Under the pieces are notes generated by a model, which worked only from the letters and a program-made list of their open reading frames with translations, was not told the origin of the DNA and searched no databases. Positions 7,972 to 59,640 of a DNA stretch of 64,000 bases are shown here, one piece after another. The position numbers and the translations under genes were made by a program. Positions within the stretch are counted from its first letter, which is position 1. Every line of letters starts with the position of its first letter. The stretch comes from Isoetes taiwanensis (Eukaryota; Streptophyta; Lycopodiopsida; Isoetales; Isoetaceae), in NCBI GenBank assembly GCA_021234155.1, contig JAJEKV010000020.1:6308563-6372562 (forward strand). Direction: 5' to 3'.

Positions 7972-8791
7972 GGTAATATACTACCACCCCAATTCTGGGT
8001 CCACACTTAAAAACAACAGTAAAAGAAAAACCACGTATTACATGTGGTTATGTGGAGGTGTGGTTTATTAAGAAGACGGTGTAGGTTTTTTTTAAGGAGC
8101 TATAGCTTTTTTTTTTTGAAGGTGTGGTTTTTTTTTTAGGTGTGGTTTCATTTTGCGAAAGTGTAGTTTTTTTTTTAAAGATGAGTTGTTTTTAAGAGGA
8201 TGTTGTTTTCTGAGGTGTGGTTTATAATAAGGTGTTGTTTTTAAGTATTTATTTTTTAAGGAAATATGGTTTTTTAAGATGTCGTTTATAAGTAGGTGTA
8301 GTTTTTAAGTAGCTGTTTTCTAAGGAAGTATAGTTTTCTGAAGTGGTATGATTTTTTAAGTCTAGGTGTTGTTTTTTGAGGTGTGGTTTATAAGTGAGTG
8401 TAGTTTTTAAGCAGCTGTTTTGGAAAGAAGTATGGGTTTTTGAGGTGTGGTTTATAAGTGGGTGTAGTTCTTAAGTGGCTGTTTTTTATGAAAGTATGGT
8501 TTTCTGAAGTGGTGTGATTTTTTAAGTTGAGCTGTTGTTTTTTGAGGTGTGGTCTATAAGTGGGTGTAGTTTTTAAGTAGTTGTTTTTGAAAGAAGTATG
8601 GTTTTTTGAGGTGTGGTTTATAAGTGGTTGTAGTTTTTAAGTGGTTGTTTTTTAATAAAGTATGGTTTTTCTGAAGTGGTGTAGTTTATAACTAGGTACA
8701 ATTTTTAAGAAGCTATTTTTTTAAGGAAGTATGTTTTTTTTGAGGTATGGTTTATATAATTAGGTGTAATTTTTAAGTAGTTGTTTTTTAA
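7972..8791 (+). repeat. T/G-rich tandem array, left part (interrupted by Helitron H1)
   Basis: A degenerate array built on the phrase GAGGTGTGGTTTATAAGTGG...GTAGTTTTTAAGTGG...GAAGTATGGTTTTTTG. Its phase marker GAGGTGTGG occurs at about 8378, 8442, 8544 and 8608, giving a 64-bp basic unit with a longer 102-bp variant. The array opens with CTACCACCCCAATTCTGGGT, a border also found at other arrays in this window. It breaks off at 8791 and resumes at 13774. Confidence 0.85.
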
Positions 8792-9979
8792 TCTTATATT
8801 ATAATGTTATACCGTAATTCCTGGATTTGGATCCAGCCCTAGATCCGACGGCCACAAATGACATCCCCAGATCAAAGGGTCCAAACGAAGCCCTTTTTTT
8901 TTTAAATCTGATCTATTTTTTCAATGGTCCAAAAAAAGCCCTTTTATTTTAGGAAGCCTTTTTTTTCCATTACCCGGAGTGCAGCACGTCAACTCTTCTC
9001 ACATTAGGGTTTTGCCCTAGGTGAGAACACAAATTCAGACCGCGAATTGGATGTCGGAGAGATCCGTTTGTGGCAGAAGTTGTGGGTGCTGGATCCAAAC
9101 AGAGTACTGACCAGCTCATAGCTTGCAGGAGTATTGAAGGTTCTGAGATCTGTGCCACAAATTCTAGAGCTTCGTGTTCTGCAAGCTTACATTTTTGCAA
9201 TGAACAGGTCACAAAAAGAAAGCCTAACGTTTTGTAACTCACATGGATGTTATTTTCACTGAAGAATCTCTGAAAGGTTCGCCCCTGACCGTGAAGACAA
9301 GTCCAAAATAGGCTGCTAATAGAATCGTGGTAAGCACAATAAAGGCAATTTTGAACTCTGTTTTGCAATTTTGAACAATCATGCGCACCTTTGTTCTGAA
9401 GTGAATTCCATACAAGGAGAATTTTTGAAATAACAAAGCTAAACCTGCACAATAGGAAATATTGATGGACATTATATTTGAATCTATTGAATATCCTAGC
9501 TAGAAATTTTCTGATTATCTTCCAACAGAAAAGAGCTTGGGTTGTAAAGATCTTCGGTTGTGAATGTCCCTGGAGGAACTGGGGCAGGAGATATAGCAGA
9601 AAAGAACTTCGGTTGTGAATGTCTCTATGACTCCATAGCTGTTGTTTGCCTATGGGGCAGTGCCTCTTCATTTCACAACAGTTGTAGTCATCTGATTCAA
9701 AGAGGGATAATTTATGTAAAAATATCTACTCAACAACATTCGAGGTCGCCATGCCTTTATTCATAGTTTCATATGTCTCCAGTCAACAGGCACATTCCCA
9801 TCTGCATCTGCAGGTGTTTTTCTTGAGGCCTGGCTATGGCGAGTTTGACTCCAGCCATGCATCATTTAACCCGTATATATTAGAAGAAATTCTCTCTGGC
9901 ATCAATTCTTGGATTTGTTCGGGCTACATGACGAGATATAGGTAGAGGTCCTTCACAAGATTAATTATGCTCTAATCTG

Positions 9980-19926: not shown

Positions 19927-22900
19927 TAGAATGTGCCATAATAACAAGAAGCAGGCGGAGGCCGAAGCCGATGGTTTGGCAATTTCATGCATATCTATTT
20001 ATACACACCTAAATTATTGACGGTATATACATACAAATTATTGCAAGTATAGCAAACCATACACATAATATAAAAAAATAATACTTACATAGAACCAATA
20101 ATGCTGCTATAAGAACACAATGTATATTCGAAAGAGGTTGGTGTAAAGTATATTTCATATTCAAAACTTTTTGGAAAGTGTATTTCCTGTATACATATAT
20201 ATCAAAAAAGTTCCCTTTCTAGAACGATTTTCTCAAGGTCCCTGTCAATTTCTCCTGTCCGATCAAGTTGCGGGTATAGTGTTTGTATCTCTTCGACCGT
20301 TTTTCCTGAAGCTATTTCATGCAAGACACTAACAAAACGAAGGAGGAATGAGGATGATAGGATGGTGGATTCAATGACTGTGACTGATTGAAGCAACACT
20401 TTAGAGCATCATCATCCACCATGATCATGCCTTCCTTATCCTCAACACCTAGGGCATCCATCATGTTGCGCAAGCATTTCACAAATATCTTTTTACCTGT
20501 CGGTTCCTTAGGGTTTGTGAATGAAGCACATTTGCTTTGATCCCAGATGGACGCCCAATCTCTATTTAGCTCAGGCACTACTTTCAAAACATCCTGTATA
20601 TTTCTATGCTCCATAGATGACCAAATTGCACAACGAAACAGACTGAAGGCCTGGTCCAACATCTCCTTCAGATAAGGGCGCGGGTAAACATATTTGGTAC
20701 GTGTCTCAAATGGTTGTTGCGCATACCATGACTTTTCAAACGTTGCTTTAGGTAACGTTCTACATAGCACACCATTCAAATCAAAGACCAGTACTTTTGG
20801 GGAAGCCGAATCATTTCTGTAAAGCGAACAATAACGTATGAGATGAAAGAAATGGAAAATGAAAACGCGCCAGGCGCGATTTCATTAATGATGCATGTCA
20901 ACATAATTTAAAAATATGATCTCTAGGAAACTCTAAATCGCGCCAGGCGCGATTTCTATATGCTTGTAGTTTGTAAAATGCATGGATATCAAAAAAAGGA
21001 ACATTGTCACGATACCTTTCTTCTTCATCATTCCCCGTGGTGTCTTCTTCCATTGCATCCTTATTCTGAGTTGTCTCCGGTCTGCTAGAAGCACCAACCA
21101 CATCAGTTGAGATCTGTACAGTGTGAACTATGCGTGATAGTTCATTACTCTTTACGCTAACCTGGCTAGTGCTTTCAGATTTGGAGTCTGCTTCATCATC
21201 ATTATTGTTATTATCATCATCCTTGTTATTTTCATCCTGTTCTATATTTTCCCTGTCAAGGATGTTCACAGGCATGTCGATAGGTATTTGGTGATCTGTC
21301 TGCTCTTCGGTGTCATCCATCAGCTGTCTCATTCCCTCCCGTTCTTTAAGCAAATCTGCAGGTATTTCGGCCTTAGAGGTAGAAGCTTTGCTTTTTGCAC
21401 TGCCGATTGGTCCCCTAGGTGCTTCCTCTAGTACTTTCTCAAAGAAGAGGTCCAAGAAATTTTTGGCTCGATCATCGGAGACGACGCTCTGGCATTTCCT
21501 TGCTAACTTCAAAGCTTCTCTACCGATGTAACCCCCAACGTGAAGCTCCCAGCAAGTTGTTCCCAATGGGAAAAATGCTTCAATGAGATAATGGGAAAGG
21601 TCCATAGAGAACCCATTCTTGTTTAGTTTCCCCCTATGTGAAGTTAGGAGTTCATACTTAATGTGGTCCACAAGAACTGGGTCAGCCTGGTTATCTTCCT
21701 CTTCTTCCTCTTCTTCCTCTAACTCTTCCACGACCTTGACACCCTTCCCCTTGTCTTCTTGCTCCAGATAGAAGGCGTTTCGCAGGATGCGTTCATGTAA
21801 CTGATAGCACTGCCATGCTAGTTTGTCTCCATCTGGTTTTCCCTTAAGCCTTTCATACTCCTTATCATCCATCATGGCTATCATAATAATAAGCACATGA
21901 GAAATTTTACTTGCTGTGCTGAAGTCACTGTCCCTATTTTCATCTATGAGGATCGCCTGTCGTATGACTTTCACGCATTCTAAGTCATTTGCAGCAGTTA
22001 GAGCATATGCATAGGACATGTCGGAGGGACATATAGTGACAACTAGAAAATTGCCCAGCGTTGCTGGGCTTCAAGTAGATGTTTGTAATCACTATCGTGC
22101 TTAATCATTCAATTACATGGTAATGTATTGATTCTTTTTAGACATAAAAGGCCATGCCCTTATGCCAGACAATTTAAATAAGGGCAAAAGAGATGAGGAA
22201 GTTGAACATACCAGTGACTATTTAGAAGATTAATAAAAACCATCAAGAACAGAGTACATAAAGCCCAATAAATATTCCTTTGGATAGATGTGTAGAAAAG
22301 ACAAATTGGCAGAATAAAAATGAGAGGAGCTTGAAGAAATGGCCACAGCACATTGTCCCAAACTGTTACACGAAGCCAACTTCTGAAAGTGTTATGTGCT
22401 TAAAACATAATATTTACCTATTACACGAATGTACTTAGAACACTATCAGCCAAGCCCATCATTCTTGACTTTCTTTTGCTATTGAGGAATGTTTTTGGTG
22501 TTCATACTTTATTTCATATAACTCATCCACATCTTGTTAATCTATGTTTGTGCCTTGTGGTCTATTATTTTGAGTTATTTGCCCTTTAGTCTTTTTATGT
22601 GATTGTACATGGGCCATTCATACGCCAAATGTTATAGGGTCATATATATCAAACATGCTAATCCTAAAGTGGTAAATGAGATAAATTTGACTTTGTTATA
22701 CAGTTATGCATTCTAAGTTTGTAATAATGACCTTTGCATCTTTTAAAGAAATGAGATACACATCAATAGTTGCTTAAAATGATCAAGCAATTGTAAGAGA
22801 AGCACATTCTCACGTTAGTTAAACGTAATAAAACCACTTTTAAAGCATGCACAAACACATTGATTTGCTTTTTAAAAAATTGTTGATGCTTCTTGAAGTA

Positions 22901-28546: not shown

Positions 28547-31179
28547 TCACTCTAGAAGATGGTGATGGCATTCACGTGCAAAGACTGTCTCACCAGGAAC
28601 CCTCTTCTTTCGCTTGCGCCCTCTATGAATGGTGTTGGCCTTGCAATAGTGTTTCCATCCATTGAAGTCACAAACCGTTGCCATGGTAGGAGCTGGGCCA
28701 ATCGCAATGGTGCTTAGCAGCAAACGTTGTAGTTGTCCGCCTAGCTCCCTAAGCAAGAAATCGGCCTCTCTTGCAATGGTGGGATTGCTGGAAATAGTGT
28801 CCCTGATATGTACAAGGCTGGCCTCTATACTTTCCTGCAGCTTAGCTTGAGTTGATGGAACCTTCTCCTCGTCAACATCCCTACCATAATCCTCGGAATC
28901 CTGTTGATTCCCATTGGGAGCATCAAAGCAACCGTCTTCCTCAGTGTAAGCTTCGGCCATGGTTCTCAAGTTAGCTAATCCGCCACCTTGTGAACCAAAG
29001 AGGGTTCCACAAACCCTTAAGATGTCCTCCTCCTTGTAGTTGGACATCATACGAAGAACCTTCACTTGGTGTTTACACATGTTACCTTTGATACCCCAAG
29101 GACAGTCACAGCATGACCAATTCTCATTGGCAACCACCACCAAGTAAGGGACTGATTCTGTGTTCTCGTCCCATGCATCCATGTTCTGGCTCCATACCTC
29201 AGCCGTGCCTGCCTTGTAATCCAGCCATCTAACTGTCGTGTCAGAAATGCCACGTGCACCAATAATAGCTGTCTCAACAATATGTTCTTGTTTGCGGTTA
29301 AATTTGAAGCCCTGTTCCTTCTTAAACTGGTCATATGACATATGTGTTTCTAACTGATTCACCAACATGTACAGCAGCCAATCAAGCCGCCTCCCTCTCA
29401 GTGCATGCTTGGAAAGCCCAAGCCTTTTCTTCATGTGGAAATGATAGGACTCTGCCCCAGCATTAGTTTCCTGGTTTGCATGAGGATAAACTCTAGTGGC
29501 TGTAATCCAGAAGGAGATGTTTTTGGTCCAAACCTTGTCCATGTAGGACACAACCTTCTTGTATCTCTTATATTTTTGCTTGAACTCTTCGAGGAGTCTC
29601 AAGCCTTCTACACGACAAGATTCCAAGTATGCCTCCCGAAGTCTACCATCACCCTCGACGTGAGTGCCATACATAATGTGCCCCAACTCCTTGAACATTT
29701 CAGCCCTCACTTTCTTGTCCTTAACTCGCTTCACTAACATCTTCAACCAATTCCTCCTAACGTGCCACAGGCACAACTGGATTGCTGAATTGGGCCATAC
29801 TTCCTGCAAAGCCTTAATTTCAGCCTTCGCATCATCCACAATGAAGCATGAGGGTGTCCAAGCTGGATCCAACTTGTGAATGTGTTCTTTCATAGCTGTG
29901 AGCCATGGCCGAATTTCTTTTGTTTCCTGACTAGAAGTCATAACCCATGCAATTGGCACACCATTCCCATGACTGTCAAAAATTAGCAAGGTATATAAAC
30001 TATAGCAATGGTCATTGGTCTTAAAGGGTGAATCCATAGCAACAACATTGCCTTTACCATGTTCCAACAGAATCTTCATTTGGAATGGAGTGATAACACC
30101 TAAAGTGAATGGTCTGCCTTCTTGATACAAGAATACACACTCTTGGTGTAGAGAAACCCACAACCTAATGCTCTCTGGAACATTTGGATGTAGCAGCCAG
30201 GTGTCTCTAGCAAGTTTGCGAGAGATATTGTACAGATCATCCATATCAAGAATCTGATCACGGTTTGGCCCATTCCTCCTCGTGCTTTGTCATGACCTGT
30301 TGGAAAGTGTGGCTCTAATGCAGCAAACTCCTTGCCCAAAGCTTCTTCTTCTTAGATAGCCAGGGGGCCACATTGAACCTGGTTTTCTCGCAATTTGGGT
30401 CCTCCCCTCCATGGCATGCCTACCCTTGTGAATCGATATGCTTCATCTCATAAAAAGTTATCTTTGTCCACTCTGGCCTCAAGTATAATTGCTTCAATTG
30501 GAAGTGGCACATGCACCCGCGCTTGATGCTGGCTCCCCTGAACCTCTTGGATTGAGATGGATCCAATCTCTTAGCTTCAGCCACCAAAGCCTTCCGTGTT
30601 TTGTCGAGCACCTTTCGGGTATTGCCCCGGAGGTCCATTGGACCATAGGCACACCAGTAGCTGCAAAACCATAGCCCCAATTCCCCCACCCCCAATTCCG
30701 TCCATAGTTTATGTCAATCTCAAAATGCAAAGCAGAAACTGAACAAATAAATGCATTAAAAGAAGAAAATACACCGGATAACTGGATAACACTGACATGG
30801 TGGTGCTGAGGTGCGCATTTTCGTCCACCTTCCTCTTCAGATCCCCCAGTTTTCTGCGGTTTGAAGACCTCTTGTAGAAGTTGGTGTTTGTGCCATCACA
30901 GTTCTCCTCTCCGATTATGAAATCAGCTGCCCTGTTGCTGGGAATGTAGCAAGTATGGACACATTGGGTCTGCTGCCCGCTGTCGGTCACCACTTCATCA
31001 TCGACTGGAGCCACGTTTGGAATGGGCTTCAACAGCTTCTCAATTCTCCAATTCAGATCGGCTTTAGAGAAGGGACCAGGTGGAGGATCCTGCAGGTCCA
31101 CGAGCTTGAGGCTCTGAAACATGCAGCCGGCTGATTCAAGCAACTCTGCTATGACCTTCAAGCAGCACAAGGAGTCCAA
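28547..31179 (-). CDS. MULE-type transposase gene, frame-broken in the N-terminal half
   Basis: The main frame, 30244-28547 (565 aa), is a Mutator-like transposase of the plant SWIM-finger class, which cuts and pastes DNA in the nucleus. Visible: catalytic Asp71 in VAMDSPFKTN, Asp137/138 in CFIVDDAKAE, the CLWHVRRNW motif at 158-166, Glu265 in NAGAESYHFH, and a SWIM zinc finger C379-x-C381...C390-K-H392. Upstream pieces continue the family: 30695-30420 has CAYGPMDLRG and GASIKRGCMCHF, and 31179-30775 is joined to it by a 56-bp intron (30719-30774). A frame break lies in a G-run near 30680-30700 and at least one more in 30280-30400. Terminal inverted repeats were not found. It could be a decaying element; a domesticated host gene is less likely given the breaks. 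Confidence 0.85.
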
Positions 31180-37860: not shown

Positions 37861-38051
37861 TAATGATTGTACACACTTAAAAAATAGCAATAAATAACTA
37901 TGACAAACCAAATAAACAAACTATCATAAAGAACCATGGTGCTGAAATGTGGTAACAAACTAGAATAATAAGTTATCCATAAGAACCACACCATATAACT
38001 ATTAATGGTTATTCAACACATTAACCCATTTAGTAATATCTCTTTTTTATA

Positions 38052-39416
38052 GTGGTTTTATATAAAAACGATTGTGAAAAACTGATAGTGATTGTTTTTT
38101 GGGTGCCTTGTGCAGCAGCTCTGTCAAAACAGAGCTTCAAAACAAACGATACCTACCTCTGTTGCACCCGGGTCGACACAATGCTCCTCCATCATCGAAG
38201 CGCTTCACCAATCCCTCCGGGAGCTGGAATTGAAGCTTTAAGGCGAGTCCAATTGGGGATGGGCGGGGAATTGCGGAACGCATTTAGGGGGCGGAGAACG
38301 GGGCAACGGGCTTTCTTTTGGGACGGAACAGGGCATTTAATGCTTGTTAGCCCGTGGTACTCTGGTCTTGTGTCAGTAGGAGCCGTAATGATTAATGGTC
38401 TTGCCTGTCCGGATAAATCACCGGGATGGGGTCATGGATGGCCGAGCGGATGGCCATCGCGGGCGCATGGATGTGCGGATGGTTATGGATGGGGGGCGAT
38501 GCGATGTCCAGAAAAACCACCGGAAAAATGTCCGAATAAACCGTATCCCGTTGTAGATATACGGGCGCCCCATGAATTGGGGTTGGTTCAACTTCTGACA
38601 AAGGGGTTTAGTTCAGATCATCAAACATGTGAAGATGGAAATCCAGTCTTGCAAACGGAAGAGATAGAGACAGGAATTGTCTTGGGAGAAGGTAGTTATG
38701 GTAAGGTTTTTGCAATTAAGTGGAAACATGTTATACTTGCAATGAAAATGTTCAAGGGTGAATGTAAAGAGGTAGGCACACTTGCAAAATTAAAGCATCC
38801 TAATATTATACCAGTGGTTTACTCCTCTAACGTGGCAGGGGGGGATGGACGGATGTTCATGGAGTGCCTAAAGCCATTTCCAAAATTTGTGGAGGAATGC
38901 AAACCCTCATATGCTCTTTCTCTAGATATCATGCTGCAAGTTGCGCGGGCCATGCGTTACTTGCACGATAATGATATAATTCACCGTGATTTGAAGCCTG
39001 ATAACTTGCTGATTAATTGTGACAGTCCAAGATGCAAGTATTTTCATGTCAAAGTTGCTGATTTTGGAGTTGCAAGTTCCCATTTCAACACCAACAATAC
39101 GACAATGCGTACAGGATGGAGGGGTACCCCACCTTACATGGCACCAGAGGTTCAAACTCCAGAACATTACAGTAGAAAAGTTGATGTCTTTAGTTATGCC
39201 AAAACCTGTTTCTATATACTCAGAAAATCTTCCGCAACAACTTGTGGTTGTGAGACTCCAAATACGGATGTGGCTAGTGCTCCCCCCGAACCCCCTTCTG
39301 ATATTATTCCTACATCTCTTTTGAAGTATCTTGACACATGCTCTAATGAAAAGGGAATATATCGGCCATCGTTTGCACAAATCACAAGGCCCCCAAAAAA
39401 GAACTCATATAAATAA
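38052..39416 (+). CDS. Protein kinase, single uninterrupted frame (454 aa)
   Basis: A Ser/Thr or TKL-type kinase that transfers phosphate from ATP. The domain spans about residues 205-450 with all key motifs: glycine loop GEGSYG (212-217), Lys232 in LAMKMF, Glu240 as a plausible alpha-C glutamate, HRDLKPDN (311-318), DFG (337-339), APE (364-366) and Asp378. Residues 1-200 match no kinase, are Gly/Trp-rich (GWGHGWPSGWPSRAHG), and lie in GC-richer DNA that carries a relative of the 157-bp satellite boxes at about 38508-38545. The true start is therefore uncertain, and a later ATG is possible. The lack of introns fits a retrocopy or captured gene; the domain end is short beyond subdomain XI. It looks whole in its catalytic core. 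Confidence 0.8.
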   Translation: MVLYKNDCEKLIVIVFWVPCAAALSKQSFKTNDTYLCCTRVDTMLLHHRSASPIPPGAGIEALRRVQLGMGGELRNAFRGRRTGQRAFFWDGTGHLMLVSPWYSGLVSVGAVMINGLACPDKSPGWGHGWPSGWPSRAHGCADGYGWGAMRCPEKPPEKCPNKPYPVVDIRAPHELGLVQLLTKGFSSDHQTCEDGNPVLQTEEIETGIVLGEGSYGKVFAIKWKHVILAMKMFKGECKEVGTLAKLKHPNIIPVVYSSNVAGGDGRMFMECLKPFPKFVEECKPSYALSLDIMLQVARAMRYLHDNDIIHRDLKPDNLLINCDSPRCKYFHVKVADFGVASSHFNTNNTTMRTGWRGTPPYMAPEVQTPEHYSRKVDVFSYAKTCFYILRKSSATTCGCETPNTDVASAPPEPPSDIIPTSLLKYLDTCSNEKGIYRPSFAQITRPPKKNSYK

Positions 39417-45436: not shown

Positions 45437-48424
45437 TACAATGTTGTAATTCAGTACAAACCCATTCGTACCTATTTTAGTAAGTACATGATTTGTGCAC
45501 TTAAAAAGCCTAATATATCAATCCTAAAGCCACTCCTTACTACTTATTACACACTCCTTACTGTTTTTTAAGGTTCATTGGATTTTGACATATTCCTACA
45601 AATATGCCACATCTAGGGTCCACAAATATACACCTCACACCCCATATACTTGAACGCTTCCCCTGCATATGTATATATGTATGAAATTACGTATAGGAAT
45701 AGCAAATACAGGGCCACGAACCATTGCAAAAAGAGGAAAAAATTTTGCAATCAGAATCGCTCGTCCACCTCTGAACCTCTCCGGAACCTCTTCATCAGCT
45801 CTGAGCGACCCCTCGGCGGGTCAGCCCTGTCACCGCGCAGGCGCCCTATGGAAGGAGGGGTGGCCATGTACAGATCGGCCGGCAGCGGACATGTCTCATG
45901 AGTGGGGGCTGGATCGACCTGGTCCCTACCTCATTTGGAACTCTTCCTGTCGGCTGCAAGTCACTCACCTCGGCGAAGGAGGGATCGGTTGGAGTGTGGA
46001 TGCTCATATCCAAAGCGGTGGCAAAGATGTCTCGCATCGTAACTGGGGCTGAGCAGCGGTATCTGTGGAGCTCGACTAGCAACTCCTCCTCTGTGGGCAA
46101 ATGGCGGCGATCCTGCGTGCAATGGCGGTCATTGAGCATAGCATGTGCGGTCGATCTTCTTCTGGCGAGCGCCACGTGCCACTAGCTCGACTCTAATCAC
46201 GACCTTCATGATAGGGCTGCATCCTCTCAAGGCCCTCCACTTTGTCGTGTCTGCTGGCCTCATAAAACATGGCGTCGGCCCCTCGGGGAAGGCTTCTAGG
46301 GCGGCCTCGGGGTAAGGACATCTTTGTAGGCGCATCGTTATTCGCCTTGTCTCCTCGCCCTCTCTATGTGCGGCCGCGGCCTCCATCATCGTCGCGGCTT
46401 TTGCGGGGGATCTTCTCGACGTTTGCAGCCCTCTCCGGCTTTCGGACACCACTCTCTCGCAATTGGCGGAGTTGCACCCCTCGGCCCGGAATGTCTGTCT
46501 GTGGGCCACCATTGATCTGCATGGTGGCTCTGATGGTGGCCCCAAGCTCCATCGCGGGTCAATCCTGGAAATCCGGGGTCGCGCCGACTCTTGTCCACAA
46601 AGTGTGTACACCAGTCTTTGTGCAAATCCACATTGGCCCGCGGTGTGGCCCGACCCGCTCTCAACAGGCGTGACCACTGCGCACGGGCACCAAATGCCAT
46701 GGTATTCCTGTCACAAAAATAAAATACGGTTAACAAGCACACAAAACATACCTAGCGGGATAAGACAGTGCTAGTTGGGGTACCATTCGACAATGCTACC
46801 GATGCGTCCGGGGACATCAGCGCCGCTCTGCAGGCCAAATGGCAAGGGACGCTCATCCATGCCGCCCTGGGGAAGCGCCTCCATTTGAGACATGGTCTCT
46901 GGCGGATAAATGTAGATTTGCTCGAAATAGATATCGAATTCCGGTGATTATGAGTGACCGGTTGGGAGGGCGAATCGGTATTAAGGATTCCACTATGAGA
47001 GATCCACGGACTACTTCGTGAATCTGAAAGGGATTGTTTAGGATAAGACTATAATTCAAGACCGGGTTCTGGACTACGAAAATGGACAAACTCATAGAGT
47101 AGAATCGAAAACAAAAGTAAAGCGAGAAAGCAAGGGGCCGTGAAGGTTTAGCAAAGGGGTTAAAGCGAGCGGATAAAGGGAAAAATTTAGAGGGGATTAT
47201 TGATGGCAAGACTAGTCTTTGCAATGTGGAGACTTACAGGCAAAACCAAACAAAGAACTAGTGACAATCAACTGAACATGAAACAACGCCCACCATAAAT
47301 ACTACAAAGCGGGTTCTCGGCAGCCTAACGGGCCTTGCGCATACAGCTCCATTCCTTGCCATTGATTTTGTAATGCTTCTCCATGAATCGTCCTGCGAAA
47401 TTTATCCTCTTCCAGAAAGTGAAAAGCAAAAACCCATATGATAGGATTTGGCAAGAGGGCCCGGCGGCTCCCGCGGCTCCGGAACCGGGGTGGCGGCCCC
47501 CCGCCACCGCGTCGCCCCCTTGCAGCGTCCGTTACCGGGGTTAAGCCAAAGCGAACCGGTAGATCTTTAATACCCGCCGTTACCGCGGGGGCTGCAGCGC
47601 GTACTCCCAGCCCCCACGCCCGCGGCGTCCGTGCACGGGTTAGCCCAAAGCGACCGTTGGATCTTATTACCCGTGCCGGGCAGCGCCCATTACTCCCGGC
47701 CCGGGGGTTGTGGCGAACCGGTATTCTTGCCGCTTTTGCCAAACCCCGGCGCTTTTGCCAAGCACGAACCTTCTTAGGGTTCGGGTTCATGGCGAACGGT
47801 AGGAAAACCAGCCATTACGCGCGCGTGAGGCTCCGCCAGTCGGCCCGGGCGAACCAAGTGGGTTAGCCGGGCGGGAATTTTCGGGTTCGCTGGGCGAACC
47901 CGAACCTTGGTCCCAGCGAACTTGGTTTCGGGAGCCAATAAAGTGCGCGTTATGCCTCGCTAATGTCAACCTTAGTGATCAATCTTAAAGCCAATGCCTC
48001 ACTCTCTTAAATTGAGTATGTGAGCGTCACCCATGCCTCCATAGATTGCTATTTGGATGAGGCGTTTCTGCCAAGATGGTCTAAGTGCCCATAATTTTGC
48101 TTTTCTTGAGGTCATTGATATGCCACATTATGTTGACTATAATATCATCAATGTGAGTCAAGTCCATTTTTTTAACCTATTCCAATGATGGTACACATAT
48201 ATATTCTTGTCAGTGGGTAATGTAGGATATAGAGAATAAAAGCTATGTTGGGAAAACATTTAGAGTAATTATTTTGAATATTTCCTTTTTATCACTTATT
48301 AGTCATACTTCAAATTTAATACTAGGAATTTGAACTCATAGCTGGACTCTTCTACTATAGCATTTGCATATGTAAAGACTATCACTTTCTCTGATATGTC
48401 AATAGTAATTTGTTTATTAACCAG
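45437..48424. other. GC-rich block without recognisable genes (45.75-47.95 kb)
   Basis: Open frames overlap on both strands (up to 182 codons), as expected from GC-rich DNA with few stops; none matches a known family. The part 47440-47720 is strongly GC-rich and holds two imperfect copies of a unit about 98 bp apart (near 47539 and 47637: GGGTTA then CAAAGCGA then GGATCTTATTACCCG forms). A palindrome CGGGTTCGCTGGGCGAACCCG lies at about 47881. The block could be part of a decayed element; I cannot assign it. 47950-48424 is AT-rich intron-like sequence. Confidence 0.4.
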
Positions 48425-54150: not shown

Positions 54151-56192
54151 GAGCGAGAAATGGCGCAAAAGAAGATTGCAATATCGGGGAATGTGACAAA
54201 GAAAATGAAGCGTAAGATTGATGAAATTTGTAAATTTATATATGATCGGGTTCAAGATTTCGTCACTGTGCAAAGGAGAGCTTTAGCGGTGGCTGTTAGG
54301 GATGAAAAGGCTGCACTTCTTTTTGAACTGCCATTGGAAATCCGGTATAAGCAATTGAAGGATACTATGCTAAAAAATATCCGTGAAGGTGCGGGGAAGT
54401 GAAAAGAGCAAATAGCAATGATAAATTAGCGACTAAGCATTCCCTGTTATCAATGATTGTTGGTGAGAATGGAAAACTTCGGGCAAAAGGGTAGCCTCGA
54501 GAATTCTTCAAGTGCAAGCAAGAAACCTCACAAAAGCTGCAATTAGAAGAAGAAAGCGGATGTCATTATCAGGTGCTAATATGTGGCCTTTGGCGGAAGG
54601 CAACCAGGCGGACATGCTTAGGAATCAACCAAGCGGTTGGTAAATGAGTTTTGGTTAACCCACACAAAAACTTCTCCCGATCAGGGGATGTCGGGAAGAA
54701 AAGGACACTTCCAATCCGGTTTTTGGACATGCCCGTGTCAGTTTTAAGTCTTTTAATCCTCTTTCTTGCAAGCTTGATAGAAGCTAGCTTATGTGCATCT
54801 GGATAAGTTTAGTAATCCTATTTGCATTCCATGTAAGGGATGTATATCGATATACATTGTAGTACATCCAACTACAATAATTATATTTTTACACTTGGAG
54901 GTCTTGAATGAGCTATGTTTAAGGGAAAAGTACTTGGATGTACTTCCGGTTACATCAATGTGGCATAAAGGCGAGAAAATGTGTTGAAAGTCGCCGTGTG
55001 TTATTATAGTCTTGCTTTTTGTAGTTCCCAAGTACATTATAGTACATTTTAAGCCTTTCTGATCTCAAGATAGTCTTTAAAGATAGGGTGATACATAAAA
55101 GTATTTAAATGTACTTCCTTCCATAAGAAAAGTATGAAATACATACATCATAATCTGTTGATCTTTATGCGTGACTGGTTACATATTGAGTTTTTTATGT
55201 ACATCCGGAACTCTTTGGAGTACATTATTTATACATTTGTACATATCATGTAGGGGGGGTATGTATGATGGTGTGGTATAGTAGTTGAATGTATATCAAA
55301 TCATGATCCGAGTGCCATAGAACTAATGCAATGTCGCAACATCTTTGAAATTAGTAAGTAGTTCTAATTTATATCTTACTTATACATGCCATTTTTTTCC
55401 TTGCAGAGTGAATTGTATGAGATGTTCAAAGATGAACATCCTGAAGTGAAGATTAGCATCAGAAAGTTCGAGCTGCTTAAGCCTACGTGTGTGAGAAGGT
55501 TGAAAGAGAGGAACACATGCTGCTGCGTGAAGCATGAACAAGCTGATCTATCTGAGAAAGCTTTTAGCGTCCGAGGAGCAAATTTCATGCCAAGCTGTAC
55601 ATGTTCTTGTGGTGTTTTATGCGTGAGATGAGAACAATGGCGTCGCCAAGCTCCTTCTAAAACATTTCAAAATGTTGGTGCTATGTGGAGAGCTTCTGAT
55701 GCGTGATAAGGAAGGCGAAGAGTGGCATAGTTTGGTGTGTGAAGGGAGAGTGCGAAGCTGCGGTACTTGAAAATATTCAAATCTGTCCTAAGGAGAAAGA
55801 GTCGTGAGAATGAGAACATTGAATGGCAAGTTTACAAATGCGTGAATGAACCTTCCATAGCTGGCACTTCAAGGAGGTTGAAGCTTATTCTTGGCGGGAC
55901 TCGGTACATTGCTTGACAAGATGTTTCAGCACCTTACAAAGTTCACTATTCACAACTTTTCAGCAAGTTGGCAGAGCAAACAATTCAGGAAATCAGTGCA
56001 AAATTTGAGGGATGATTCTGTTTTGTCAGTAATGGACTTTGCAGAGAACTACACTTTGCAGCCATTCAGGGAAGTTCAGTCCGAGCATTGGAACAATGAC
56101 CAGATAACTATTCTGGTGCATATAACCATGATGAAAGTCAATGGCGAGCTGAAAAAAACTGTTCATTTGTATGTTTCCGATGTTATGAAGCA

Positions 56193-58010
56193 CTAGTTAA
56201 AGTGCCCAGCATTGCTGGGCATAGCTAGGAACTGTAAATGATATACTGGAGTAATCATTAAATGGATTCACGCTTTTAAAATTAGATAATTAAGAGCATT
56301 TGACCACATTTTCCACTTCCCCTTACCTTTTCTCTTTCCCTTTGCCTTTACTTTTTTTTTTCTATTTTTCCTTACCCCTTTTCCCTTTTTATATTTTCCA
56401 ATTTACCTTTTTCTTTTTCCATTATTCCATTTTCCTCATTTCCCTTTTCTGTTTTCTGCTTCCCTGTTTTTCCTTTTCTATTTTCCCTTTCCCTTTTCTC
56501 CAATTTATGGTTGCCCTTTTTTCGCTTTCCTGTGCCCTTTCCTCCTTTCCTCGTGCCCTTGTTTTCCAAGTTTTTCTTCCCCCTTTCCCCTTTCCTTTCC
56601 CTTTCCCTTTTCCCTTTCTTTTTCCTTTCCCTTTTCCCTTTCTTTCTCCCCACCTTTTCTTTTTTTCCCCTTTTCCCTTCATTTTTCCTCCTTTCCCCAG
56701 CCCTTCCGTCTTCCCTTTTTTCTAGTGCCCTTTCCCCTTATTTTCCCCTCTTTTTTTTTTCCTTTTGCTCTTTCCCTTTCCCTTTTTCCATGTCCATTTT
56801 TCCTTCTTTTTTCTCCTTTCCTCACCTTTTACCTCTTCCCTTTTTTCCCATGTCCCTTTTCTCTTCTATTTTCCCATGCTTTTTTTCGATCCTCTTTTCC
56901 CCTTTATTCACATTTTTCCTCTTCTTCCTCCTCCCCCCTCCTTTTCCCTCTTTTCCTTCTCTTTTTCTTTTTCTATTTTGCTCTTCCTTTTCGTTCACCT
57001 CCCCTTTCTATTTTCCCATTTTACCCCGCCTTTTTCTATTTGCTTTTTCCCCTTTTTTCACGTTTGCCTTTTCCATTTCCCCCCTCCTCGCTTTTCCCTT
57101 TTTCTGTCTCCCCCTTACTTTTTTCTCCCTCCCCTTTTCACATTCCCTTTTTCCTTTTACATTTTCTTATTTTACTTTTCTCCCATCCCACCCCCTTTGC
57201 TTCCCTTTCCCCCTTCCCCTTTTTCTTTTGAATTCTTTTTTACCAATGGCCTTTTTCCCTTCCTTTTTCCTCCTCTCCCAACCCTTTCTCTCTTCTGCTT
57301 TTTTTCGTGCCCTTTTCCCTTCCATTTCCCTCTCGTCCACCTCCTTTTTCTTTTTTTTTCCTTTCTTTTTTTCCTTTTTTTTCCCTTTTTTTTTCTCATG
57401 TCTTTTTTTTGCTTCCCTTTATTTCTCTTTTCCATTTTACAGTGCCCTTTCTTTCTTCCCTTTGCCCATCCTTTCCCTCTTCTTGTAGTCTTTTTCCTTA
57501 CCTTTCCTCCCTCCTATGTTCTTTTCCTTTTCCCTATTCCCCTGTCCTCCCTCCTTTCTCTCTTCCTTTTTTCAGCTTCTCTTTTCCTCCTTTTCTCTTC
57601 CTCTTTTCCCCATGCCCTTTTTCCCTTTTCCCCTCCTTTTCCTTTTCCATTTCCCTTCGCTTTTCTACCTTTCCTCACCCTTTTCCTTCTCAGTGTCATT
57701 TTTGCTCTCCCCCTTCCCCCTTTCTCTTCCCTTTACCTTTTCCATGCCCCTTTGCTTTCACTTTCCATTTTCCCTTTCCCTTTTTCCTCCCTTTTCTTTT
57801 TTCTCAGTTTCCTTTTTTCCTTCCCTTTTCCCTTTTCCCTTCAACCCTTTAACTGTTGGAGTGCGCAAATTGTATTGAAGCAACGATCAAGATGAAATTT
57901 TGGTTGAAAACACGCACACGTCATCTTCACCATTGATCCATCAAATCCTCAACCGTCCGATCTAGGGCACCATTCACAACGGACAAACGGTATAATTTTA
58001 TAATATAAGA
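56193..58010 (-). mobile_element. Non-autonomous Helitron H3 (1,818 bp), mostly polypyrimidine
   Basis: On the minus strand it starts TCTTATATTATAA (58010 leftward), 21 of 23 terminal bases identical to H1, and ends with hairpin GCCCAGCAATGCTGGGC (56220-56204), then ACTTTAA and CTAG (56196-56193). The plus-strand flanks are A (56192) and T (58011). Rejoining them restores the transposase frame exactly: ATG AAG CA|T GAT GCT TTC, read as MKHDAFFVQAALKK. There is no target duplication and no Rep/helicase frame. Most of the body is the pyrimidine tract; only about 165 bp at the 5' side and 90 bp at the 3' side are ordinary sequence, the 5' part sharing CCCTAGATCNGACGG with H1. Confidence 0.94.
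56305..57845. repeat. 1.5 kb near-pure C/T tract on the plus strand
   Basis: Built from variants of TTTCCC, CCTTTT and TTTCCTT with only isolated purines, mostly in words such as CATGC and GTGCCC. It yields long open frames in all three plus frames (up to 376 codons) made of Phe, Pro, Ser and Leu, plus Lys/Gly/Glu/Arg frames on the minus strand. These are composition artefacts. Confidence 0.97.
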
Positions 58011-59082
58011 TGATGCTTTCTTTGTTCAGGCTGCACTCAAGAAGCACCATATTTGGATGATGCAAAAAGGTTTTGGCCACATCAAATACCATGTCATGTG
58101 GTCTGATGGGTGTGCTGCTCAGTTTAAGTGTTCTCGAGCCTTTTATTTGAATGTGGCCCAATATTATAACAGGTATAAAATTAGGATGCAGTGGAATTAT
58201 TTTGGCTCAGGCCATGGAAAAGGAGAACATGATGGGCAGGCTGCTTTGGAGAAAAGGTTCCTAGCAGACGAGCAAAGGAAAGAGAATGGTGTTCCGATTT
58301 TGGGTGCCAACTCTGCTTGCACTTTCTTTGAGACAAAAGAAGTGCAAAATGGACGAGAGTCATATGGGAGGTGATGGCGAGAAGACATTGCTGAGGACCC
58401 TCGTTGATTGTGAGACATTGCACGGTACTCTAGCTATACATTGTGTATGCGCTATTAATCCGGTGACCCAACACTTGTCATGTATAGATCCCTGTCATGT
58501 TTTGCAATGGTTGCTTGAATTTCAGATGGGGAGAATGTGAGAATCTCGAGCATTGTGGTGCATGGAAGCTGCACAAAACTGGAGCCTAGTTCGCCCGGTC
58601 ATTAAACGAACAAGAAGAGCTAGTTGGTTTTATGCGGTGATGAGCAAGAACTATCCGATGTACTCCAAATTGGAGACATATTTGCATCTTTGCTGCCCTA
58701 GGGAATCATGAAAATGTTCCATACCGTCCTCCTATCGTGAAGGAGATGCATATTCTTGGGGAAGATGTGATTGACGACTATGGAAATAGAATCTTTGGCT
58801 GGTAGCGAGGGGTTATAGCTGGTCATTACTATCAACGCTACAAGGCACAAAGCACAAGTACAAGTTCTTTGGATGACAAAATAGTATTGGTACCGGTGAA
58901 TCAGAATTGGAGCAAAGTTCACGATGCGGCAGGTCAAGCATAAGTTGAAGGGGGCACGTCACGGCATATATATGATCACACGAGAGGTGCATGACATGCT
59001 TATATCAAGCCTACACGAGATTGTTGAGTGCACATGACTAAGTTACGTACAAAGGAACTTTCATATTTGCCATCATCTTACG

Positions 59083-59640
59083 TTATGTTGAGAAAACTAG
59101 TCGATTCTTCGTAAGTTTTTTGTTATTTACTTATTTTTTAATCGAAGTGCATTTTGATACTTCAATTTCAAGTATCCGCTGAGAATATCTTCGTGACCAA
59201 GCAAAATGTATATCATAAAGTACAAAATGTTTATCAATTGTTGCATGAAGAAGTTAAACTAGTACGTGTTATGTTGAGAAAACTAGTCGATTCGCAAGTT
59301 TTTTTCTTATTTACTTATTTTTAATCGATGTGCATTTTGATACTTAAATTTCAGTATTTCACAATATCTTCGTTTCCAAGCACAATGTATATCAGAAAGT
59401 ACAAAATGTTTATCAATTGTTGCATGAAGAAGTTAAACTAGTCGTGTTATGTTGAGAAAACTAGTCGATTCTTTGCAAGTTTTTTTCTTATTTACTTATT
59501 TTTAATGGGAAGTGCATTTTGATACTTAAATTTCAGTATCACACAATATCTTACGTTTCCAAGCACAATGTATATCGAGAAAGTACAAAATGTTCATCAA
59601 TTGTTGCATGAAGAAGTTAAACTAGTCTCGTGAACTTGTT
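59083..59640. repeat. Tandem repeat, about 180-bp unit, three copies
   Basis: GTTATGTTGAGAAAACTAGT starts near 59083, 59267 and 59444. Each unit continues with AGTGCATTTTGATACTT, CAAGCAMAATGTATAT and TTGTTGCATGAAGAAGTTAA. It lies between the transposase remains and the convergent minus-strand genes. Confidence 0.9.

Follow-up and report, generated by a model that had tools for sequence, protein, structure and literature searches.

H3, an element of 1818 bp on the minus strand of a 64-kb stretch of the Isoetes taiwanensis genome (hereafter, the window), is an ordinary insertion from an unusual family of Helitrons. The members of this family have as their shared body a long polypurine tract, which lies on the same strand wherever it was looked at. 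H3 itself looks chimeric, with its first ~190 bp related to one subfamily, its last ~1460 bp to another, and the join inside the tract. The account as a whole, namely that of a large family of tract-bodied Helitrons that is mobilised by a RepHel protein and exchanges ends within its tracts, with H3 as a product, is considered probable.

The ends of H3 are those of canonical plant Helitrons, with a 5' TC and a 3' CTRR (Table 1). It also bears the GC-rich hairpin that is typical of the class at ~10-12 nt before the 3' end, and its 3'-terminal 45 nt, which hold this hairpin, are predicted to fold as DNA at -9.5 kcal/mol. Terminal inverted repeats are absent, as the two end sequences are by eye not inverted copies of each other, and the element is inserted between an A and a T without a target-site duplication. 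No coding sequence for Rep and helicase was found in H3, where the stop-to-stop frames of at least 170 aa are readings of the low-complexity tract on the plus strand. The preliminary description had proposed a Helitron with a tract wholly between its termini, and its coordinates proved exact; its statement that a 1.5 kb polypyrimidine tract makes up most of the element was also borne out, as the tract covers 1534 of the 1818 bp (84%) and is polypyrimidine on the plus strand.

Table 1. Features of H3 and of its insertion site, in window coordinates
Feature	Position	Strand	Remarks
Complete non-autonomous Helitron H3	56193..58010	-	1818 bp; 5'-TC at 58010, CTAG-3' at 56193; relatives have the same ends
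3' terminator-type hairpin	56203..56221	-	8-bp stem with a loop of 3 nt; ends 10 nt short of the 3' end
3' arm	56193..56308	-	116 bp; 79-89% identity to its counterparts in five long elements of subfamily B
Polypurine tract	56309..57842	- (polypyrimidine on +)	1534 bp, 90.8% purine; from a maximal-segment scan
5' arm	57843..58010	-	168 bp; 83% identity to the 5' arm of the L065 tract Helitron
Putative 5' module of the chimera (H3 positions 1-192)	57819..58010	-	82% over 192 bp to the L065 element
Putative 3' module of the chimera (H3 positions 357-1818)	56193..57654	-	78-81% over 1.15-1.52 kb to subfamily B
Best candidate for an intramolecular triplex	56601..56642		Perfect mirror with 18-nt arms around a 6-nt spacer, within the 81-nt purine run; window coordinates computed by hand from those in the tract
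Left portion of the split repeat (high-copy, coding-like)	55409..56192 (start provisional)	+	87-93% identity to nine of ten empty copies
Right part of the interrupted frame	58011..58371	+	120 codons to the first stop

Non-autonomous Helitrons can have an odd internal composition, and the tract of H3, read on the element strand, consists of 53.8% A, 37.0% G, 3.7% C and 5.5% T, with 81 nt as its longest unbroken purine run. It is the sole segment in the score class of 60 or more on either strand of the window, and a single shuffle of the first 56 kb of the window gave no segment of that class. The tract has a period of 6-7, with an autocorrelation of 0.486 at lag 6 and 0.494 at lag 7 against 0.43 in mononucleotide shuffles, none of which (0 of 300) reached the observed values at lags 6, 7 and 13. 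Its frequent words include GGAAAA, AAAGGG and GGGAAA, and the tract is read as a degenerate GGGAAA(A)-like simple repeat.

The insertion site was defined by comparison with uninterrupted copies of the surrounding repeat. A search of the genome with the right flank gave 40 scored matches (92-100%), among them the window's own copy, and the best 10 of the 39 others were taken as empty sites, each with 700 bases upstream. All ten are continuous through GAAGCA/TGATGCTTTC, where the slash marks the insertion point, with no base lost, gained or duplicated, and in all ten the left and right flanks meet at GAAGCA/TGATGC. One of the ten, L058, matches the left flank in two pieces (90 and 99%). Point changes occur 6 bases from the site in L060 and farther upstream in L064, and in L056 and L061 an A run upstream is shorter by one A, which shifts the frame. 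The interrupted repeat is coding-like, because the reading frame across the site contains only 2 stops in 233 codons in L055, while the other two frames have many. A Pfam search with the two pieces of the split frame returned no family over the cut-off, and "transposase" is therefore only the label of the preliminary description. That description held that H3 cleanly splits a transposase frame; the clean insertion stands in ten of ten empty sites, and the identity of the frame as a transposase does not. It also stated that removal of the element restores the codons MKHDAFFV, and the rejoined frame does read MKH/DAFFV, with uninterrupted copies of the kind that it had proposed to seek recovered in all ten cases fetched.

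Several other features of the window were recorded. Downstream of the split repeat, at 59040-59640, a unit of ~180 bp (GTTATGTTGAGAAAACTAGTCGATTC...) is by eye repeated in tandem about three times. A 580-codon open frame on the minus strand (28547-30289) has a MULE transposase domain over the cut-off and a weak SWIM match, a 459-codon open frame on the plus strand (38037-39416) has a protein kinase domain, and an open frame on the minus strand (20312-20881) has an NLI-interacting-factor-like phosphatase domain. Positions 8001-9000 have a GC skew of +0.48 and an excess of T, and positions 46001-48000 have a GC content of 54-56% compared with ~40% in most of the window.

The relatives of H3 were sought in the complete assembly (1,658,258,908 bases in 1,110 contigs). 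The 3' hairpin with CTAG has 2,486 matches at up to three mismatches and a generalised exact pattern of the 3' end has 3,694, with no match to the reversed-pattern control of the former or to the control of the latter; the H3-type 5' terminus has 131 matches at up to three mismatches. From the loci of the best matches to H3, 25 further elements were extracted by script, and their tracts measure 1223-2180 bp with a purity of 0.888-0.92 in 24 of them; the value of 0.814 in the remaining one, L041, comes from an element whose ends were misplaced by the script. As placed by the script, 21 of the 25 start with TC, 24 end with CTAG, and all are followed by T. Across 40 loci, CTAG is followed by T in 34 of 34 pattern matches, and the base before TC (43 starts) is A in 32, G in 6, which are the head-to-tail cases, and T in 5. 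The script assigned 17 relatives to type A, with an H3-like 5' arm, and 8 to type B, although one of the latter (L025) is A-like along its length; L017 and L019 have the same flank after CTAG and are possibly segmental duplicates. The conserved ends and the range of tract lengths answer the proposal in the preliminary description that other copies of H3 be compared, and its suggestion that the tract could be an expansion internal to H3 is contradicted, insofar as a private expansion is meant, by the tracts of 1.2-2.2 kb in the 25 further elements.

A sample of 17 3' ends, taken in even steps through the first 100 listed of the 3,694 matches and with one L065 entry replaced by its neighbour, gives an estimate of how common such tracts are. 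Seven of the 17 adjoin a polypurine tract, all on the same strand, and none adjoins a polypyrimidine tract on that strand; the other ten have neither type of tract within 300 bp. By eye, the seven tract-bearing ends comprise at least three types of 3' arm. By proportion, this small sample from low-numbered contigs suggests ~1,500 tract Helitrons in the genome, perhaps more than 1,000.

By alignment, the two parts of H3 are discordant in their kinship. The L065-type 5' arm is present in all 17 elements typed A (75-84%), and the 5' arms of subfamily B resemble that of H3 over ~63 bp only, at 73-75%. Conversely, the matches of subfamily B to H3 begin at H3 position 357-375 in six of the eight elements typed B. 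The H3 tract is 80.7% identical to that of L038, against 56.7% for the reversed control, and only 56.4% identical to that of the L065 element, against 58.0% reversed and 58.6% rotated, even though the 5' arms of H3 and the L065 element agree at 83%. In L014_1430, also of type A, the best match of the tract to H3 reaches only 73%. Alignment of low-complexity tracts is error-prone, and reversed-control matches extend up to 109 bp at 75-85%; because they reach no further, the matches of 192 bp and 1.15-1.5 kb stand out. Other matches between H3 and the L065 element are non-collinear and at most 147 bp long; the one of 147 bp (76%) slightly exceeds the reversed control in length. Since H3 positions 193-356 match neither parent, the junction is not exact to the base.

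Thus, an H3-type element seems to combine a 5' end from one subfamily with a tract and 3' end from a second, and the tracts seem to be sites at which Helitron ends are exchanged. The route suggested is recombination between neighbouring tracts, on the basis of head-to-tail CTAG-TC junctions in 6 of 40 loci, three of which (L022, L036 and L065) by eye join elements of different types, and of partial duplications within elements of L008, L014 and L016. The head-to-tail junctions are also consistent with rolling-circle copying of one strand. In their head-to-tail arrays the members of the H3 family resemble the plant centromeric Helitrons of Xiong et al. 2016, which are said to have been amplified by rolling circle; we know of no tract-mediated exchange of ends in those elements. 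At the junction in L028 (near 1632 of the reverse complement), the CTAG that precedes the TC start has no family hairpin upstream and may be the 3' end of another Helitron type.

H3 was probably mobilised by a RepHel with the same 3' hairpin terminus, a link that is drawn from the shared ~28-bp 3' terminus and from adjacency at one locus. At this locus, L065, an open frame of 994 aa contains a complete PIF1 domain and, of Helitron_like_N, the second half; this RepHel copy is not intact, as part of the N domain is missing from the frame and a TGA falls within the match. After the RepHel frame come a variant form of the family hairpin with CTAG and, immediately adjacent, the TC of another tract element. 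Upstream of the RepHel sequence lies a complete tract Helitron, itself preceded by a reversed tract-element end. The sub-terminal sequence of the L065 RepHel element is by eye closely alike in 2 of the 17 sampled ends and more distantly so in one more. In 12 other RepHel loci with ~1.5-kb flanks, no H3-type end was found (0 of 12), and purine profiles of 12 RepHel loci with such flanks likewise revealed no tract inside the RepHel elements; a search of L083 for the 5' end of a RepHel element gave none.

Some further observations concern these loci. The tract Helitron of L065 (119-2027 of the reverse complement) directly adjoins RepHel sequence, from 2035 onward, which is 92% like L046; this Helitron has perhaps inserted into a RepHel gene of its own family, yet its other side is the reversed tract-element end. 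Some regions upstream of RepHel genes contain short AAAGG/CCTTT words on both strands. Upstream of the RepHel coding sequence in L052 and L083 there are by eye tandem units of ~42 bp with AAAAAGGCAAAAAGGG and its near-inverse CCTTTTGCCTTTTTCCC; these words are tract-like but occur on both strands, and are a possible seed of the tract.

In the mechanism that we propose, the RepHel protein of an element with an H3-type 3' hairpin would move H3 by rolling-circle copying of the TC...CTAG (purine) strand. The tract is carried along with the family and is not made anew at each site, as the alignment of relatives' tracts at ~80-93% shows. Head-to-tail arrays of family members would then bring tract beside tract, where recombination or template switching could link 5' and 3' ends that come from different subfamilies. 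Over evolution the tract would thereby act as an interchangeable middle, with H3 as one such product. H3 landed between the A and T of the high-copy coding-like repeat, splitting its frame without loss, and after insertion the tract decays about as the arms do.

The decay of the tract was assessed in 14 of the 18 type-A elements by comparison with their consensus (L008, L014_3190, L016 and L026 were left out for length). Differences from the consensus amount to 5.6% in the tract and to 4.8 and 5.0% in the arms, with transition/transversion ratios of 2.7 in the tract and 2.3 and 1.5 in the arms; gaps make up 3.7% of the tract, 0.3% of the 5' arm and 5.9% of the 3' arm. Changes from purine to pyrimidine show no consistent deficit in the tract (A, 9 per thousand versus 5 in the arms; G, 15 versus 19). 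Changes from pyrimidine to purine are about twice as frequent there (C, 53 versus 27; T, 34 versus 17), possibly as an artefact of alignment. Purity is below that of the consensus (0.9148) in 13 of the 14 copies. A neutral model with the observed rates comes to balance at 72-78% purine and approaches it slowly, with purity still at 0.883 after ~0.22 substitutions per site; because neutral decay is this slow, selection is not needed to account for the present purity. Purifying selection acting on single copies was rejected, given that the tract changes at the rates of the arms, and purity above the neutral balance was likewise set aside as proof of upkeep. The purity of source elements may reflect youth, turnover by slippage, or selection on the source elements themselves.

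The reading of the tract as captured or expanded low-complexity sequence without a role is given somewhat less than an even chance. It agrees with the arm-like decay, with the slow neutral loss of purity, with counts of G-quadruplex motifs and mirror repeats that are as expected (below), and with the excess of gaps in the tract over the 5' arm, though the 3' arm has more gaps still. It accounts less readily for a tract that occurs with several different 3' arms, in sequences that no longer align, and in a single polarity in all cases examined, nor does it predict that pyrimidine interruptions revert to purine at about twice the rate in the arms, if this is not the alignment artefact already mentioned. 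In a second model, which we think unlikely, the tract is a selected part of transposition: the peeled strand would be nearly free of hairpins over 1.5 kb, such that past the 5' arm no stable structure resembling a terminator would precede the 3' hairpin, and copying would be faithful and frequent. Predicted DNA folding in 100-nt windows fits this model: the displaced (purine) strand has a mean of -0.3 kcal/mol per 100 nt through the tract, and 80 control windows of the 64 kb have a mean of -8.2, none being weaker than -1.3, while the 3'-terminal 45 nt fold at -9.5. All seven tract-bearing sampled ends, with their varied 3' arms, have the purine on the transposed strand, and the tracts of H3 and the L065 element cannot be aligned, yet their purities are 0.908 and 0.893. 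However, folding does not explain the polarity of the tract, because the pyrimidine strand is equally unstructured (-0.2 kcal/mol). The 5' arm also folds (-6.1 and -7.4), two tract windows reach -2.3 and -1.4, polarity could come from common descent, and the ten sampled ends that have no tract nearby, along with the decay and purity data, also weigh against selection. The broader proposal, that in one Helitron lineage a purine body, strand-polarised and poor in hairpins, has become a working part that eases peeling to the true terminator and also a universal joint for exchanging 5' ends, is about as unlikely, and the slow neutral decay of purity lowers its odds too.

Two further roles would depend on the chemistry or the words of the tract. 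The preliminary description suggested that a mobile tract able to form H-DNA could alter replication or transcription where it lands, which is judged very unlikely. Its term "mirror-repeat-rich" applies to H3 against one control only: for perfect mirrors with arms of at least 10 and spacers of at most 8, the tract has 7, versus a mean of 2.0 in mononucleotide shuffles (0 of 100 reach 7) and of 4.2 in dinucleotide shuffles (12 of 100 reach 7). Other chunks of the window of the same length have a mean of 0.8 (n = 36), but two of them exceed H3, with 16 and 11. One mirror does favour the suggestion, as its 18-nt arms (Table 1) are longer than any in 100 dinucleotide shuffles (16 nt). H3 contains 2 G-quadruplex motifs, where dinucleotide shuffles have a mean of 2.7; in raw counts, the 25 relatives have 3-7 such motifs on the purine strand and none on the opposite strand. 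Enrichment of triplex or G-quadruplex motifs was accordingly rejected, the counts in H3 lying within dinucleotide-shuffle expectation. By analogy with a domesticated helitron of Drosophila miranda, the tract might instead spread binding sites for GA-repeat proteins, an idea to which we attach hardly any weight; the analogy is with a GA-rich motif, and the words of the tract are GGGAAA(A)-like and not (GA)n. In the available part of its description, the Drosophila element carries a GA-rich motif of 21 bp for the MSL complex (PMC6417741). It is like H3 in bearing purine-biased low-complexity sequence, and differs in that its motif is a 21-bp recognition site of known use, whereas that of H3 is a 1.5-kb body.

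The closest published case found, going by the part of the paper available, is DHH_Mothra of rice, a high-copy non-autonomous Helitron of 1252-2741 bp with TC/CTAG ends and a hairpin motif of 16 bp that lies 13 bp before the 3' end (PMC4683698). Its body contains compositionally unusual repeats whose number varies, most likely through slippage or unequal crossing-over, and its authors suspect that composition contributes to the success of the element (PMC4683698). In that partial account, DHH_Mothra shares with the H3 family its high copy number in a plant, its non-autonomy, its termini and 3' hairpin, and an unusual repeat body. The two differ in that Bloc A of Mothra is a low-GC tandem repeat and the H3 tract is strand-asymmetric purine with 37% G, and in that the 5' ends of the H3 family, unlike those of Mothra as there described, have apparently been exchanged between subfamilies. 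Helraiser, a reconstructed bat Helitron, transposes one strand, uses its 3' hairpin as a terminator, and forms circles with joined ends, again from a partial view of the source (PMC5876387). Such circles could give CTAG-TC junctions like those of the H3 family; Helraiser is an animal element for which the text available describes no purine tract, while the H3 family is a plant family that has one. Among the papers listed by searches of PMC full text, judged by title or the start of the abstract and with subscription papers mostly uncovered, none describes a Helitron family of this kind; no paper on Helitrons of Isoetes taiwanensis was returned, the papers that combine Isoetes and Helitron being off-topic by title. 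The new points here are a strand-polarised purine body at scale and the apparent exchange of ends inside the tract.

Repeat finders may treat kilobase purine tracts at many places in this genome as simple sequence and mask them, and such tracts may give rise to long spurious reading frames. A tract family whose body is extreme and strand-polarised, and in which at least one end swap has apparently occurred in nature, makes two questions testable, namely whether internal composition sets the rate of transposition, and whether Helitron ends are renewed through recombination in low-complexity DNA. Were the reading of the tract as a working part true, this family would renew its termini by recombination in a sequence with fixed chemistry but no fixed letters.
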